Origin: Prevotella sp.
GTDB taxonomy: Bacteria; Bacteroidota; Bacteroidia; Bacteroidales; Bacteroidaceae
Reading direction: 5' to 3'
DNA: 56,495 nucleotides
NCBI GenBank assembly: GCA_017395215.1
Contig: JAFPVW010000145.1
Location: forward strand, 1 to 56,495
Below the pieces are notes generated by a model. That model saw only the letters and a program-made list of their open reading frames with translations. It was not told the DNA's origin and did no database searches. Shown one piece after another: positions 29,854-35,391 of the stretch (position 1 is the stretch's first letter; each line of letters starts with the position of its first letter). Both the position numbers and the translations under genes were made by a program.

Positions 29854-29867
29854 CGTAATCGTTTGCG
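29854..29867. promoter_or_regulatory. Possible weak LacI-family operator
   Basis: CGTAATCGTTTGCG differs from the palindrome CGCAAACGTTTGCG in one half-site. Its centre is 82 bp from the -7 at 29775-29782, farther than the other sites. It abuts the 21-bp repeats of element D. Confidence 0.4.
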
Positions 29868-29870
29868 TGA

Positions 29871-29948
29871 AAAGCGCCGCTTTTTGTCCAAAACCCGGTG
29901 CCTTTTGTCCAAAACCCGCCGCCTTTTGTGCAAAACCCGCCGCCTTTT
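29871..29948. repeat. Composite element D, copy 2: 21-bp tandem units
   Basis: Three full units GTCCAAAACCCGGTGCCTTTT-like at 29886-29906, 29907-29927 and 29928-29948 after a partial unit at 29871-29885. A further half unit (AAAACCGCC) follows at 29954-29962. The rest of the 467-bp gap between 29679 and 30147 holds the -7 and operator above, a spacer without recognised content (29963-30033) and the hairpin below. Confidence 0.85.
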
Positions 29949-30033
29949 TAGAGAAAACCGCCAGTTCCCAAAAATTCAACAGCCCTGAATATTTAGCACC
30001 CCCTAACGCGAGCGCGCACACACGCGCTTGTGA

Positions 30034-30146: not shown

Positions 30147-32108
30147 TCAGAACTCCAGCACCAGCGACTGGCGCGGTTTCAGCTCCACGTCGCTGCTCAG
30201 GTCGTAGTAGCGGCCGGTCAGCACGTCGCGTGCCCGCGTAGCCTGCCCGATGACTTCCTGATAGCGCTTCACCTGCATCATGGCCGGCTTTGTCGTGCCG
30301 TTAAGGACAGTGAGCACAGTGCGCGTCACTACATGATTCGGCTGGTCGAGCGCACGGTCTTCCAGTATCCGCGCTATGACATAGACGCCCTCGTAAGGAA
30401 TGAACTGCGTCTGCCGGCCACGGGTGATGACGGGATTGTTCTGCCGCCAGTGCAGCAGTCGGCTGAGCCACTGGAACATCGACTGCTCCTGCTTTGTGCG
30501 GCCCTCGCGGGTGAAGGCATTGTGGGTGTCGCCGGGGAATCCGCCGGGGAAGTCCTTGCGCACGTTGCCGTCGGTCACCTCCTTCGTGCCGTTCATCAGG
30601 ATTTCCGTGCCGTAGTAGAGCTGGGGTATGCGGTTGACCGTCAGCAGCAGGGCCAGGGCCTGCTTCAGCATCAGCGTGTCGCGGCCGTTCTTCAGGTAGC
30701 GGTCGGTATCGTGGTTGTCGATGAAGGCCATGACCGACGACGGGTTCGGATACAGATAGTCATAGACGAACGAGTTGTAGAGCAGGTTCAGGCCGGCAAA
30801 CCAGCCGTCGGTCTCCTCAGTGGCCGCACGGTTGATCTTGTCGTAGAACGAGAAGTCCATCACCGTCTTCAGGTAGCTGTTCTGCTCAGAGAGCTTGGAG
30901 CCCTTCTGCCAGGATGCGGTATAGGCCGGCTCGGTCACCCAGGTCTCGCCGACGGTGTTGAAGTTGGGGTATTCCTCGTCAAGCTCCTTCATCCAGTCAG
31001 CCATCGCGTCGGCATAGGCGTAGGGGTAGGTGTCCATGCGGATGCCGTCGATGCCGACGGTCTCTATCCACCACTTCGAGTTCTGGATGAGATAGCGCAT
31101 AAGGTGTGGGTTGTGCTGGTTCAGGTCGGGCATGGTGGGCACGAACCAGCCCTCCACGGTCTCCTTCAGGTCAACCTCGGAGGCGTATGGGTCCTTCACG
31201 GGCGTCAGCTTGTAGCTGGTCAGAATAAAAGCCCCCCCTACTGCCCCCGAGGGGGCTTCATTACCTTGCAGGCCAGGCTTGCCAGCATTTGTAGCCCCCT
31301 CGGGGGCGGAGGGGGGGGCAATGTTCAGCCAGTCCCTGCTCGGCATGTCGCTGATCCAGGGATGCTCTAGCCCTGAGTGGTTGAAGATCATGTCCATCAC
31401 CACCTTCAGCCCTTTGGCGTGGGCCTCGTCGCAGAGGCGGCGGTAGTCGTCGTTGGTGCCGAAGCGGGGGTCAACGCGATAGTAGTTGGTCGTGGCATAG
31501 CCGTGGTAGGTGGAGTAGCCCTGGGCGTTGTCAGGCGAGTCGTTCTCGAGGACGGGTGTCAGCCAGAGGGCGGTCACGCCGAGGTCGCAGAAGTAGTCCA
31601 GGTGCTCGCGGATGCCATTCAGGTCGCCGCCGTGGCGCAGCGAGGGCTGCGAGCGGTCTTCCTTATAGGCCCGCATGCCCTTCACCTGCGGGTTATGGCC
31701 CTGGCCCTGGGCGAAGCGGTCGGGCATGAGCATGTAGAGCACGTCGGCATTGGTAAAGCCCATGCGCTTGTCGCCGCTCATCTCGCGCTGCTTCAGCTGG
31801 TAATTTACCTTCAGCTTGTCGAACGTCAGCGTCATCGTGCCGGGCTGGGCGTTGCGCAGGTTCATGTAGATGAGCAGATAGTTGGGCGAATCGAGGCGCA
31901 CAAGGCTGTCGATGACCACGCCGGGATAGTCGGTGGTGACGTTCTGGACATTACGGATGCCCTGTCCGTAGACCATCAGCTGCACCGTCGGGTTCTTCAT
32001 GCCGACGAACCAGTCGGTAGGTTCGATACGGTCAATCTTAATCTTTGCTGCACTCATTGTTAGCATTGGCGCCACGAGGGCGGTTAATAGTAAAAGCTTC
32101 TTTTTCAT
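30147..32108 (-). CDS. susA: Periplasmic GH13 neopullulanase/cyclomaltodextrinase, SusA-like, with repeat-derived loop
   Basis: 653 aa from ATG 32108 (signal peptide MKKKLLLLTALVAPMLTMSA); the longer frame to 32159 overlaps the transposase gene and is unlikely. An N-terminal beta domain (about 22-105) precedes the GH13 barrel. Catalytic residues: nucleophile Asp359 in GIDGIRMDTYPYA, acid/base Glu388 in NTVGETWV, stabilising Asp467 in FIDNHDTDRYL; also MPDRFAQG and VVMDMIFNH. This is the SusA pattern: it would cleave imported maltooligosaccharides in the periplasm. Residues about 264-293 (APPSAPEGATNAGKP...) come from a palindromic repeat (31231-31319) placed in frame in the loop between WLNI and ILTSYKLTPVKDPYASE; the catalytic core is unbroken. 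It is the last gene of pulA-RAYT-susA. Confidence 0.93.
   Translation of the reverse strand: MKKKLLLLTALVAPMLTMSAAKIKIDRIEPTDWFVGMKNPTVQLMVYGQGIRNVQNVTTDYPGVVIDSLVRLDSPNYLLIYMNLRNAQPGTMTLTFDKLKVNYQLKQREMSGDKRMGFTNADVLYMLMPDRFAQGQGHNPQVKGMRAYKEDRSQPSLRHGGDLNGIREHLDYFCDLGVTALWLTPVLENDSPDNAQGYSTYHGYATTNYYRVDPRFGTNDDYRRLCDEAHAKGLKVVMDMIFNHSGLEHPWISDMPSRDWLNIAPPSAPEGATNAGKPGLQGNEAPSGAVGGAFILTSYKLTPVKDPYASEVDLKETVEGWFVPTMPDLNQHNPHLMRYLIQNSKWWIETVGIDGIRMDTYPYAYADAMADWMKELDEEYPNFNTVGETWVTEPAYTASWQKGSKLSEQNSYLKTVMDFSFYDKINRAATEETDGWFAGLNLLYNSFVYDYLYPNPSSVMAFIDNHDTDRYLKNGRDTLMLKQALALLLTVNRIPQLYYGTEILMNGTKEVTDGNVRKDFPGGFPGDTHNAFTREGRTKQEQSMFQWLSRLLHWRQNNPVITRGRQTQFIPYEGVYVIARILEDRALDQPNHVVTRTVLTVLNGTTKPAMMQVKRYQEVIGQATRARDVLTGRYYDLSSDVELKPRQSLVLEF
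31231..31319. repeat. Palindromic repeat doublet, family B (inside susA-like gene)
   Basis: Arms GCCCCCCCTACTGCCCCCGA... (31231-31269) and an inverted copy (31285-31319), each with hairpin core GCCCCCGAGGGGGC. About 26 of 30 core positions match. It is translated in frame. Different sequence from family A but same head-plus-hairpin, inverted-pair layout. Only copy seen in the window. Confidence 0.8.
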
Positions 32109-32130: not shown

Positions 32131-33417
32131 TCATTCTGACTGCGGCGGCGCCGCAGCACAGCCGACAGAAGGAGCGGGCGCGGAAAGGGCGGCGGCGGGC
32201 GCGGCTTGTTGGCTGTGCGGCGGCGGTGCCACGGCAGGCGCGGCTTGTTGGCTGTGCGGCGGCGGTGCCGCTGCCTCTGCGATAATGCGGGCCAGCTCGT
32301 TCATCTGCATACACATTTGGCGGGTAAGCTTCACCTTGCGGTTCGTATGCTCAAAAGGCGAGAGGATAAGCAGCCGTCCTTCGGCGCAGGCATCGAAGAA
32401 CGCCCCGCCGGGTTTGGAGTAAGAGCCGAGGCCGTCGGCCGTGATGAGAATCAGCGGCAGGCGGGCATCGAAAGCCGTGCGCATGGTGCGCTTCTCGCCC
32501 TCGCTGATGGCTGGCGATACCAAGACGGCACCGCCTCGGGCGGCTGCCATGTAGCCGGCAACGGCCTTTTGGATGTCCTCTTCGTAAAAATGGGTGGAGC
32601 ACTGCACCTGCTTCCGCTGCGGATAGTCGAGCAGGAAGCGGTTGCCGACGGCGGAACAACAGAAAGGGCCAATGCGCAGGCCGAAGCTGACGCGGAACAG
32701 GTCAGGGAACTGGCGGCGCAGGAAGAGTCGCCGCGGGTTATCGGCGAGGTAATGGCGCCAGCGGTCCAGTTCGCCTTGGTTGCTTAGGATGTGGTCGTTA
32801 TAACCAGGGCTCCAGAGCAGGCCGTGCTCCCGGCTCTCGTGGCTGCGGTCGCGCTTCCGCGGCGGCACCGCCGCAGCACAGCCACCAGAAGCGGCGGGCG
32901 CGGAAGGGGAAGCGGCGGGCGCGGAAGGGGAAGCGGCGGGCGCGGAAAAAGCTGCGGCGGGCGCGGCTTGTTGGCTGTGCGGCGGCGGTGCCGCAGCCTC
33001 TGCCTCCTGGCCCAGCACCAGCTGCCGGTAGGCCTTGTTAGTGCTGGTCTTAAAACCGCGGATGATGGCGCCGAGGTGCTCCTGCATAGCCTGCTCGACA
33101 AAGAGGATGCCATGCAGATGGTCGGGCATCAGCTGTAGCGAGACGGCGGTGACCTCAGGATGATGGGCCGTGACGGCAAACCACTCCTCCTGCACCCGCT
33201 GCCCCAACGGCGTCAGCTCCACCCGGGCCTCGGCAGCCTCGGGCGCACCGGCAGCCTCTCCTACCAACCGCCCGAACAGCGGGCGGCGCCCCTCGACGGT
33301 CATGGTAATCATATACAGGCGCCGCTCCCGGTAGTCATGCCCTACCCGCCGTCGGTTCATCGACGGCTTCGCCTCACCGGCATAGCGCTTATGCTTCGCA
33401 TACTCCTCCTCGGTCAT
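32131..33417 (-). CDS. REP-associated tyrosine transposase (RAYT) with extra Rossmann-like C-terminal domain
   Basis: 428 aa, Y1-transposase (IS200-like) fold. HUH motif His100-Leu-His102 in LMPDHLHGILFV, helix LGAIIRGFKTSTNKAYRQL, and the catalytic Tyr206 in LLWSPGYNDHILSNQGELDRWRHYLADNP, the standard RAYT ending. Residues about 142-185 (three near-identical SAPAASP units) and 382-428 are translated palindromic repeats (family C). Residues about 245-381 form an extra alpha/beta domain (GGAVLVSPAISEGEKRTM, PLILITADGLGSYSKPGGAF, EGRLLILSPFEH, LTRQMCMQMNELA) that recalls the DprA/SLOG Rossmann fold from memory only. The gene begins 3 bp after the pulA stop and ends 22 bp before the susA-like start, in the same direction, so it is carried inside a starch operon. 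It has no terminal inverted repeats of an IS. Start could also be the ATG at 33360. Confidence 0.88.
   Translation of the reverse strand: MTEEEYAKHKRYAGEAKPSMNRRRVGHDYRERRLYMITMTVEGRRPLFGRLVGEAAGAPEAAEARVELTPLGQRVQEEWFAVTAHHPEVTAVSLQLMPDHLHGILFVEQAMQEHLGAIIRGFKTSTNKAYRQLVLGQEAEAAAPPPHSQQAAPAAAFSAPAASPSAPAASPSAPAASGGCAAAVPPRKRDRSHESREHGLLWSPGYNDHILSNQGELDRWRHYLADNPRRLFLRRQFPDLFRVSFGLRIGPFCCSAVGNRFLLDYPQRKQVQCSTHFYEEDIQKAVAGYMAAARGGAVLVSPAISEGEKRTMRTAFDARLPLILITADGLGSYSKPGGAFFDACAEGRLLILSPFEHTNRKVKLTRQMCMQMNELARIIAEAAAPPPHSQQAAPAVAPPPHSQQAAPAAALSAPAPSVGCAAAPPQSE
32147..32269. repeat. Palindromic repeats, family C, at 3' end of RAYT gene
   Basis: Left arm GGCGCCGCAGCACAGCCGACA (32147-32167) and two direct copies of the right arm CTTGTTGGCTGTGCGGCGGC... 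at 32207-32230 and 32246-32269. All are read as protein (APPPHSQQ repeats). The RAYT stop codon lies 14 bp beyond. Confidence 0.82.
32864..32992. repeat. Palindromic repeat doublet, family C, in middle of RAYT gene, with 21-bp tandem filling
   Basis: Arms GGCACCGCCGCAGCACAGCC (32864-32883 on) and the inverse GCTTGTTGGCTGTGCGGCGG (32966 on to 32992). Between them are three and a half 21-bp units AGCGGCGGGCGCGGAAGGGG. The insert lies in frame between the HUH half and the catalytic-Tyr half of the transposase. Confidence 0.85.
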
Positions 33418-33420
33418 AGG

Positions 33421-35391
33421 CTAATCATGCAGGATAAGGGCCGACTGCGGACCGACGGTGGTGCGGCGGCCGAAAATCTTGCTGGTTGACTGCTCGTTGA
33501 TCTCCCCGTCCTTGCAGACCACGGTGTACATGGCCTTGGGGATGCTGACGGTGGCCGTCTCGCGGTTGGCATTGAGGATGACGATGATATTGCGCCAGTC
33601 GTCGCGGCCGGCATAGTCCTTCAGGCGGAAGGCGACAACCCCCTTCGGGGCATCGAGGAACTCCAGGTGCTTACGCACGAGGTGGGCATCGCCAAGTCGG
33701 AAGGCGGGATGGTTGCGGCGCAGGGCTATCAGGTCCTGATAGTACTTGAACACCTGCGGGTAGCGCTGCAGGTTCTGCCAGTCGAGCTGGTTGATGCTGT
33801 CGGGCGACTCGAAGGAGTTATGCACGCCCTGCTTCGTGCGCAGCAGCTCCTCGCCGCTGAGCATGAAGGGCACGCCCTGCGAGGTGAAGACGGCGGTCTG
33901 GGCCAGCAGGTCGAGGCGGATAAGCTCGGCATCGGCAGCGGCACCGCCGCTGCACAGCGAACTTTCGGATTGTTGGCTGTGCCGCGGCGTTGGTGCTGCG
34001 AGGGCGGGAACCGAGGCCTGCAGGCGGTCGACGAGGCACATATCGTCGTGACAGGAGACGTAGGCCATCATCTGCGTCGGCTCGGTGGCCCAAGGCTGCT
34101 TGGAGTAGTTCACCTTCGCCATGTCCACCTGCGGATGGCTGATGCCGCCGACGATGCCGAACTTCAGGCTCTCCTCGCAGTCGGGAGCGCCGCCGAGCCA
34201 GCCGGTCTTCGTGTCGTCATCGAACGGGCCGCGCAGGCCATCGCGCAGCTCGTCGCTGAAGGCGGCGATGCGGGGCATCTGCGGAATGTTCGCCTTCACG
34301 CCAAGCTGCTCGGTAGGTAGGGCACACTGGCCAGCGCTCCAGCCCTCGCCGTAGATGAAGATGGAGGGATCGAGTTTATCGAGCTCCTGACGGATGAGGT
34401 TCATCGTCTCAATATCGTGGCAGCCCATGAGGTCGAAGCGGAAGCCGTCGATGCGGAACTCGTTGTACCAGTACTTCACCGACTCTATCATGAACTTGCG
34501 CATCATCGGCTTCTCAGAGGCCGTCTCATTGCCGCAGCCGCTGCCGTTGCTCCCTACGCGGTAATAGTAGTCAGGGAAGGTGCGCTGGAAATTGGAGTGC
34601 TCGATGTCGTAGGTATGATTATAGACCACGTCGAGGATGACGGCGATGCCGGCATTGTGAAGGGCCTGCACCATCTGCTTGAACTCACGGATACGGCAGA
34701 CGGGGTCGTAAGGGTCGGTGGAGTAGCCGCCCTCGGGTACGTTGTAGTTCACAGGGTCGTAGCCCCAATTGTACTGCGGCTCATTCAGGCGCGTCTCGTC
34801 CACAGAACCGTAGTCATAGCTGGGCAGGATATGCACGGCATTGACACCCAATTGCTTCAGGTGGTCGATGGCCCACGGCTCGGTCAGCGCCAGGAACTTG
34901 CCGGGGTACTTGGCATCGGGGCGCGCCACGGAGAAGTCGCGGTGGTGAAGCTCATAGACGACGAGGTCGGCAGGCGACTTGACGACGGGGTGCTGGTCGC
35001 AGCACCAGTCGTCGGGCCACGTGTTCATCGTGTTGATGATGGCGCCGCGCCGCCCGTTCACACCGACGGCCTTGGCAAAGACGCCGGGCGTCTCGCCGTG
35101 GCCAGTGTCGAAGGTATAGAAGCGGCCCATGAGGTCGCCCTTGACGGTAGCAGTCCATACTGCCCCCTCCTGTCCCGAAGAGGATACCTTCATCGTGACG
35201 GACTTCAGCGGTTTGCCGCCCTGCCCGTCCTTATAGATACGCACCTTTACGCCCTTGGCCTTTGCCGGGGCAAAGAGCTTAAATGTCGTCACCTCCGGGG
35301 TGTACGTCATCTCGTCGAAGTCAAATTCCTGCGACATGGCGGGCTTTGCCGCCAGCACTGTCAGTAGTCCAGCTAATAACAATTTCTTCAT
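33421..35391 (-). CDS. pulA: Type I pullulanase, GH13, with repeat-derived loop
   Basis: 656 aa, signal peptide MKKLLLAGLLTVLAAKPAMS, so periplasmic (or exported). N-terminal CBM48-like beta domain (about 28-120), then the GH13 barrel. Type I pullulanase signature YNWGYDP (207-213); catalytic Asp320 in FRIDGFRFDLMG, Glu349 in FIYGEGWSAG, Asp449 in SCHDD; also VILDVVYNH. It would debranch alpha-1,6 links of imported starch oligosaccharides. Residues about 462-489 (ALAAPTPRHSQQSESSLCSG...) are the translated family C palindrome (33940-33996), placed in the variable loop between MCLVDRLQ and LIRLDLLAQTAVFTSQGVPF; the barrel core is intact. Its promoter is at 35413-35420, and RAYT and the susA-like gene follow in the same transcript. 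Confidence 0.93.
   Translation of the reverse strand: MKKLLLAGLLTVLAAKPAMSQEFDFDEMTYTPEVTTFKLFAPAKAKGVKVRIYKDGQGGKPLKSVTMKVSSSGQEGAVWTATVKGDLMGRFYTFDTGHGETPGVFAKAVGVNGRRGAIINTMNTWPDDWCCDQHPVVKSPADLVVYELHHRDFSVARPDAKYPGKFLALTEPWAIDHLKQLGVNAVHILPSYDYGSVDETRLNEPQYNWGYDPVNYNVPEGGYSTDPYDPVCRIREFKQMVQALHNAGIAVILDVVYNHTYDIEHSNFQRTFPDYYYRVGSNGSGCGNETASEKPMMRKFMIESVKYWYNEFRIDGFRFDLMGCHDIETMNLIRQELDKLDPSIFIYGEGWSAGQCALPTEQLGVKANIPQMPRIAAFSDELRDGLRGPFDDDTKTGWLGGAPDCEESLKFGIVGGISHPQVDMAKVNYSKQPWATEPTQMMAYVSCHDDMCLVDRLQASVPALAAPTPRHSQQSESSLCSGGAAADAELIRLDLLAQTAVFTSQGVPFMLSGEELLRTKQGVHNSFESPDSINQLDWQNLQRYPQVFKYYQDLIALRRNHPAFRLGDAHLVRKHLEFLDAPKGVVAFRLKDYAGRDDWRNIIVILNANRETATVSIPKAMYTVVCKDGEINEQSTSKIFGRRTTVGPQSALILHD
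33940..33996. repeat. Palindromic repeat, family C, inside pulA
   Basis: GGCACCGCCGCTGCACAGCG (33940-33959) is inverted, with a short loop, against TGGCTGTGCCGCGGCGTTGG (33974-33993). Same arms as the RAYT-internal repeats 1 kb away, and translated in frame. Confidence 0.85.

Follow-up and report, generated by a model that had tools for sequence, protein, structure and literature searches.

The window analysed here is a 56,495-nucleotide contig of a Prevotella sp. genome (JAFPVW010000145.1, assembly GCA_017395215.1), in which the open reading frame (ORF) of a REP-associated tyrosine transposase (RAYT) runs uninterrupted through clusters of palindromes. This raises the question of whether these palindromes are the enzyme's own targets and how they came to reside inside its gene. 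The reading that we favor, and consider probable from comparison of sequences, is that of a functional, vertically inherited RAYT located between two starch genes and containing its own cognate REP, of the BIME/REPIN-like kind, in several in-frame copies.

The RAYT gene and the REPs inside it

The ORF (32131..33417, minus strand) encodes a protein of 428 amino acids, consisting of an HUH/Y1 transposase and a C-terminal extension. The HUH motif MPDHLHG (residues 97-103; 33109..33129, minus) and the Tyr motif YLADNP (residues 223-228; 32734..32751, minus) include residues invariant in 46 RAYTs, namely, M97, P98, D99, H100 and H102 in the former and Y223, N227 and P228 in the latter; by its role in Y1 transposases, we take Y223 to be the catalytic tyrosine. 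The best family model is NF047646 (REP_Tyr_transpos; E 5.9e-10), for which the window protein scores 39.2 bits where the cut-off is 80 and which matches 46 of 46 RAYTs at E <= 0.01; Y1_Tnp matches the window protein at E 0.004, also under its cut-off, along with 27 of the 46 RAYTs at E <= 0.1. By these matches, and by the HUH and Y..NP motifs of a Y1 transposase, the ORF is classified as a RAYT. In 15 pairwise comparisons, dN/dS was 0.01-0.24, mostly 0.1-0.2, for both the catalytic and the C-terminal part, indicating purifying selection.

The C-terminal domain (residues 242-381; 32275..32694, minus) has no Pfam match. Its weak resemblance to DprA (E 0.2; hhalign P 0.015, Prob 2.9) is closely followed by that to ribosomal protein S3 (0.63), which scored better in another comparison; the domain might be a Rossmann/SLOG-like ssDNA domain. 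Two AlphaFold models derived from 7 close sequences had mean pLDDT of 34.7 and 36.6 and were unusable.

Upstream of the RAYT gene, across a 3-nt gap, lies a pullulanase-like gene (33421..35391, minus; PF00128, PF21653), and 22 nt past the RAYT stop lies an alpha-amylase/neopullulanase-like gene (30147..32108, minus; the ATG start was picked by eye, the ORF list having an earlier GTG). All 8 orthologous loci have the amylase-like neighbor, and 5 of them also have the pullulanase motif; two of the eight (L043 and L049) probably represent one genome. The arrangement recurs in separate MAG assemblies; the window genome itself (denoted G000) is a 3.6 Mb draft, 85% complete, with 5.9% contamination. 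Relatives found by name (n=7) come from uncultured Prevotellaceae (6) and a MAG named Paludibacteraceae (1), and the scan for RAYT relatives on viral contigs found none. In one MAG (L048:3170-3471), what is left of the RAYT is a REP together with the first ~60 and the last residues, and the amylase gene remains adjacent. Elsewhere in the window, an ORF beside the amylase gene includes a run of repeated AAFCPKP-like codons (29867-30000, plus), perhaps another short repeat.

The initial annotation of this locus described two palindrome clusters translated in frame within the open RAYT ORF, one of them separating the HUH motif from the catalytic Tyr (residues 142-185). Both clusters are present, the first of them indeed between the two catalytic motifs, and a covariance model resolves them into five copies, all in frame, of a REP hairpin 34 nt long. 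Two copies (32965-32998, minus, and 32858-32891, plus) form an inverted pair in the linker between HUH and Y223 (32858..32998, residues 140-187 of the minus-strand gene), separated by a tandem Ala-Ser-Pro spacer, and the other three (32242-32275, minus; 32203-32236, minus; 32138-32171, plus) form a C-terminal cluster (32138..32275) that encodes the last 45 residues. Another copy, absent from the initial annotation, is located in frame in the pullulanase-like ORF (33934..33967, plus), next to an inverted partner (about 33970-33990) that has decayed. With up to 3 mismatches, GGCTGTGCGGCGGCGGTGCC occurs 6 times in the window, compared with 0.06 expected. The predicted RNA fold of the linker pair is strong (-74.7 kcal/mol, z -4.79); predicted folding of the C-terminal cluster and of 33934-33995 in the pullulanase-like ORF gave z of -2.18 and -2.9, respectively. 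The linker hairpins of the window RAYT are slightly decayed, with the longest perfect stem of 6 bp.

Six close orthologous loci have a readable linker or linker end (L042-L047; 65-94% identity to the window protein; only the second half of the linker in L046, and L047 interrupted by the end of the contig), and all six contain REP-type sequence at the linker. The C-terminal REP is present in L042-L046, in another reading frame in L043-L045, and absent in L047; L046 has a third REP pair, near the N-terminus. The linker spacer differs in length and sequence among the orthologues. The linker site common to the orthologues, the low dN/dS and the variable spacer and frame together suggest that the insertion is old and that the host protein was kept, and the same comparison points to an insert that is labile apart from its palindromes. 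The initial annotation had asked whether the inserted segments are missing from relatives. In the G000 paralogues readable at the linker (C39, C174 and C126), the linker is shorter or different; in the close orthologues, the linker insert is present. Its contrary case, of homologues sharing the segments as a normal domain, is half right: the DNA palindrome is conserved and a protein domain is not.

The REP family and the genomes that carry it

Across the whole genome, GGCTGTGCGGCGGCGGTGCC with up to 3 mismatches has 35 matches, compared with 1 for the reversed control. The REP consensus, GGCTGCGGCACCGCCGCAGCACAGCCAACAGGCG, is 34 nt long, forms a stem of 8 bp around a 3-nt loop, and has no stop codon in any of the six frames. 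It was derived from 29 copies of G000, drawn from 35 pattern matches of which five lacked a fetched locus and one (L027) was set aside because it probably matched by chance. In these 29 copies, 93% of the pair cells are in the paired state, and the pair at one stem position reads T-A in 14 copies, A-T in 9 and G-C in 1, with 5 copies unpaired there; none of 500 shuffles reached the covariation score. The REP palindrome is a real DNA hairpin family. Read on the strand that begins with the tail, the hairpin is mostly preceded by TGTYNGCTGT, the commonest 10-nt sequences at this position being TGTTGGCTGT (9) and TGTTCGCTGT (8). The palindrome that the initial annotation considered as a possible substrate is spread genome-wide, with 50 full-length copies in G000 detected by the covariance model at E < 0.005. 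GTAG, the foot known for RAYT substrates, occurs in none of these 50, with GTGG anywhere in 9, and CGTC is not a shared foot, occurring anywhere in 5 of the 50.

Nearly all copies (49 of 50, a second feature missing from the initial annotation) are in apparent coding sequence, C107:3865 being unclear. Apart from this copy and the five in the window RAYT, the REPs comprise 22 that are signal-peptide-like and 22 in other ORFs. Gene assignment relied on simple codon scoring combined with inspection of the ORFs, with C63:20944 placed by eye; a same-frame flag is attached to 29 of the 50 REPs, and C122:8100, C152:50154 and C25:4966 are among the 22 other sites without it. The signal-peptide-like copies are located about 7-14 codons past the start codon, all in one frame, and encode CxLCCGxAA, a sequence resembling the hydrophobic core of signal peptides of (lipo)proteins. 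Their genes, for example, those on C34, C152 and C23 (L198, L199 and L209), encode lipoprotein-like and unrelated proteins, some of the former presumably SusD-like; 11 of the 22 begin MITK-like and may be paralogues. The same N-terminal motif was found at 12 of 30 loci in other genomes (two duplicate pairs included). The remaining 22 copies are read in several frames, in hosts that include genes matching HisRS, MutY, PurL (two copies) and MurF. Compared with PDB relatives, the REP-encoded residues of these four proteins are at or near gaps, with 2 extra residues in HisRS, 5 in MutY, 7 in MurF and 11 in the first PurL copy relative to the PDB relative shown; these gap positions fall short of proving clean full-length REP insertions.

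Among 100 genomes of the same genus, the REP was detected at E <= 0.001 in six: G000 (49 copies), G051 (17), G067 (11), G041 (3), G022 (1) and G028 (1). G000 and G051 are the two genomes with a close orthologue of the window RAYT; thus, just 4 of the 98 genomes without one contain the REP, and RAYT matches of any kind (E <= 1e-10) were found in 55 of the 100. The genomes behind five orthologue loci contain 74, 19, 19, 18 and 55 REPs at E <= 0.01; G101 has the same counts and coordinates as G051 and is therefore probably the same genome. In ten further genomes without a close orthologue, searched at E <= 0.01, there were 0 REPs in seven, four of which have other RAYTs, 12 in G067, and 1 each in G022 and G061. 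G067, a MAG 85% complete, is an exception, with 11-12 REPs, no close orthologue and a best RAYT match of 46%. REP presence thus largely follows the close orthologues of the window RAYT, as an association. For both hairpin models used in such searches (R1 and R2), the source copies are counted again among the matches. The claim that the gene was invaded by its own targets is upheld in so far as this association makes the REP the probable substrate; a singular, recent invasion is not borne out.

The REP could instead be moved by another RAYT of G000 (for example, that on C174, C39, C126 or C47/C57), the window RAYT being only a host of the same sort as HisRS, MutY or PurL. Several RAYTs do exist in G000, and 22 REPs are located inside other ORFs, away from starts. 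However, the C174 and C39 RAYTs (L034 and L035) have palindromes of their own, different from this REP, both in the linker and at the stop codon or directly behind it, the REP is rare in genomes lacking an orthologue of the window RAYT, and 5 of the 50 copies are in the window RAYT gene with 1 more in its pullulanase-like neighbor. We therefore regard another RAYT as an unlikely source. The end of contig C47 and the start of C57 (L039 and L040) stop inside RAYT linkers with repeated motifs; these may be the halves of one RAYT gene, with the assembly broken by its own repeats.

Hairpins in the linkers of related RAYTs

A set of 80 RAYTs, not independent of one another, was collected; genomes of the genus supplied 75, and the other 5 are named orthologues. 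A perfect hairpin with a 3-nt loop and a stem of at least 8 bp is present in the same linker in 38 of the 80 (33 of 74 when the window gene and its named orthologues are left out), whereas codon shuffles give an expectation of 0.3 and equal windows elsewhere in genes contain such a hairpin in 3 of 303 cases. Stems of at least 7 and 9 bp are present in 40 and 20 RAYTs, respectively, and allowing loops of 3-8 nt brings the number with stems of at least 7 bp to 56 of the 80. The linkers of 42 RAYTs are without a perfect 3-nt-loop stem of 8 bp; the window RAYT falls outside the 38 because its stems are slightly decayed. An in-gene hairpin at the linker is a general pattern, and the window RAYT is no one-off.

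The hairpin families differ between RAYTs, including GCTGCGGC, GTTGCTGT, GTTGCGTT, GTTGCGAC, ACTGAGGC and others. A RAYT's own linker hairpin was found again in the fetched locus for 25 of 56 genes (none in 31 of 56), at a rate of 1.28 per 10 kb compared with 0.032 in swapped loci, and in 17 of 56 it lies in the interval from -60 to +200 nt around the stop. A model of the GTTGCTGT family (second family, R2) has matches in 35 of 100 genomes: in 27 of 55 with any RAYT match versus 8 of 45 without, and in 11 of 11 with that linker type, six of which supplied the model, versus 24 of 89 others. On a quick RAYT tree, hairpin presence requires 14 changes, at least 8 of them forced by starred branches, compared with a shuffled mean of 26; the labels were set by stem threshold, L033 was set to REP by hand, and several of the 'none' rows are decayed hairpins. 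From the order as a whole, 29 loci were fetched, yielding 22 readable RAYTs (8 loci gave none), of which 8 have a stem of at least 9 bp. No linker stem longer than 6 bp is present in L214-L217, which are four long RAYTs belonging to other families of this order.

The linkers are rich in Ala and Pro and in GC, and 47 of the 52 linker hairpins with stems of at least 7 bp share one codon phase (36 of 40 when each gene is counted once; 18 of 22 when each distinct arm is), as selection at the protein level would give. An ordinary low-complexity linker, with palindromes following from Ala/Pro/Gln/Ser codon usage, is nonetheless a very improbable explanation, given the excess of 38 of 80 over the 0.3 expected from codon shuffles, the presence of the same 34 nt in unrelated genes in several frames, and the compensated changes in the REP stem. 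The shuffles refute such a linker as the sole cause and leave room for protein selection on the phase, a bias that common ancestry fits equally well.

Across 40 RAYTs, linker hairpins are more alike the more identical the catalytic domains are, after correction for the C-terminal domain (partial r 0.50, permutation p 0.001); the reverse test, with correction for the catalytic domain, gave -0.08 (p 0.86). This suggests that REP specificity resides in the HUH-Tyr domain. By a nearest-relative rule, 7 of 78 RAYTs were flagged as having different nearest relatives for their N and C parts. In three chimeric RAYTs examined by sliding identity (L177 and L034 from the flagged seven, and L151, picked separately), the switch lies past the Tyr motif, and the linker REP was accordingly rejected as a module-swap point. 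AU tests, run for L177 alone, gave p of 1.5e-49 (C part) and 0.0007 (N part), values that are too small because the groups were named after the data had been seen. In the L151 hairpin, 17 of 18 arm bases agree with L050, a relative by catalytic domain (67%), compared with 13 and 12 for L156 and L158, relatives by C-terminal domain; yet L073 and L075, slightly nearer by catalytic domain (70%), also agree at only 13 of 18. The chimeric RAYTs thus fit the catalytic-domain rule only in part.

Under the favored reading, that of a vertically inherited RAYT with its cognate REP, the enzyme would bind the REP hairpin in single-stranded DNA and mobilize it. An ancestral REP insertion into the flexible HUH-Tyr linker would have been tolerated because the REP is open in six frames and its favored phase encodes a small, flexible Ala/Pro/Gln linker. 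Exchange with the genomic REP pool, or selection, would then hold the in-gene copy matched to the specificity of the enzyme.

Alternatively, the in-gene REP could be a maintained cis site, either one at which the RAYT binds the hairpin in its own mRNA or single-stranded gene and thereby limits its expression, or one used as the template copy of the REP family. The same site is occupied, mostly in the same phase, in many RAYTs, the hairpins change together with the catalytic domain, and the predicted RNA fold of the linker is strong; on the other side, 34 of the 80 RAYTs were scored as having no clear hairpin, and the linker copy of the window gene itself is decayed. We consider a cis function conceivable and rather doubtful. 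A broader proposal, conceivable but likewise doubtful, is that Prevotellaceae RAYTs possess, at a fixed position in the linker, a built-in, co-evolving recognition hairpin that is a working cis element (for autoregulation by self-binding or as a master template) and that their REPs, once extragenic, have turned into protein-coding modules providing many host genes with signal-peptide cores and surface loops. If each such RAYT carries its cognate hairpin, the enzyme-target pair could be read from a single gene, and dozens of natural RAYT-hairpin pairs would become available for studies of REP recognition. If intragenic REPs serve as signal peptides, they would be a rare case of a bacterial mobile repeat used as protein-coding material.

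Relation to known REP systems

RAYT genes that contain REPs have been described before, in a paper whose author we take to be Quentin. According to that paper (PMC6006769, 2018), TnpAREP subclass 2.4, corresponding to RAYT group 4 of Bertels, has REPs inside the tnpAREP genes, generally between HuH and Y and with the frame intact; its members have the motif NH[IFV]H, a tabulated length of 194 aa, no C-terminal extension, and GT[AG]G-footed or double-foot REPs. Because this case is published, self-inserted REPs are not a new kind of arrangement, and the initial annotation's view of an unusual self-insertion does not hold in its original form, given this precedent and the 38 of 80 related RAYTs with linker hairpins of at least 8 bp. 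The short RAYTs L225, L226, L230 and L236, all four found in other families of the order, have GTAG...CTAC hairpins before the GFK segment and resemble this published case. The window RAYT shares with subclass 2.4, as described there, the in-frame REPs between HuH and Y, the Bacteroidetes hosts and the REPs flanking the gene. It differs from that description in having DHLH, 428 aa and a C-terminal extension (conserved at residues 242-381), and in its REP, which has no GTAG foot, has a 3-nt loop and is inserted after the GFK segment. Because motif, length, extension, REP foot and insertion site differ, we do not assign the window RAYT to subclass 2.4. No published account of this RAYT/REP variant was recognized in the literature searched, most subscription journals being outside its scope.

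The system resembles REP/BIME and REPIN elements (PMC2817692, 2010) in its short palindromes, inverted pairs, REP-flanked RAYT and co-evolution, but differs in that 49 of 50 REPs are in apparent coding sequence and in the missing GTAG foot. With the intragenic GTAG/CGTC REPs and the Rickettsia RPEs (PMC3733652, 2013), it has in common in-frame palindromes in unrelated genes, with DNA-repair and other basic genes among the hosts. The same source reports that the E. coli RAYT acts on single-stranded REP hairpins. Unlike the repeats described there, the REP of the window has no GTAG/CGTC foot, has many copies at gene starts in a signal-peptide-like frame, and is borne by a matching RAYT itself. 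Compared with the published case of subclass 2.4, what differs here is the insertion site, the REP type and the mostly intragenic location of the copies.
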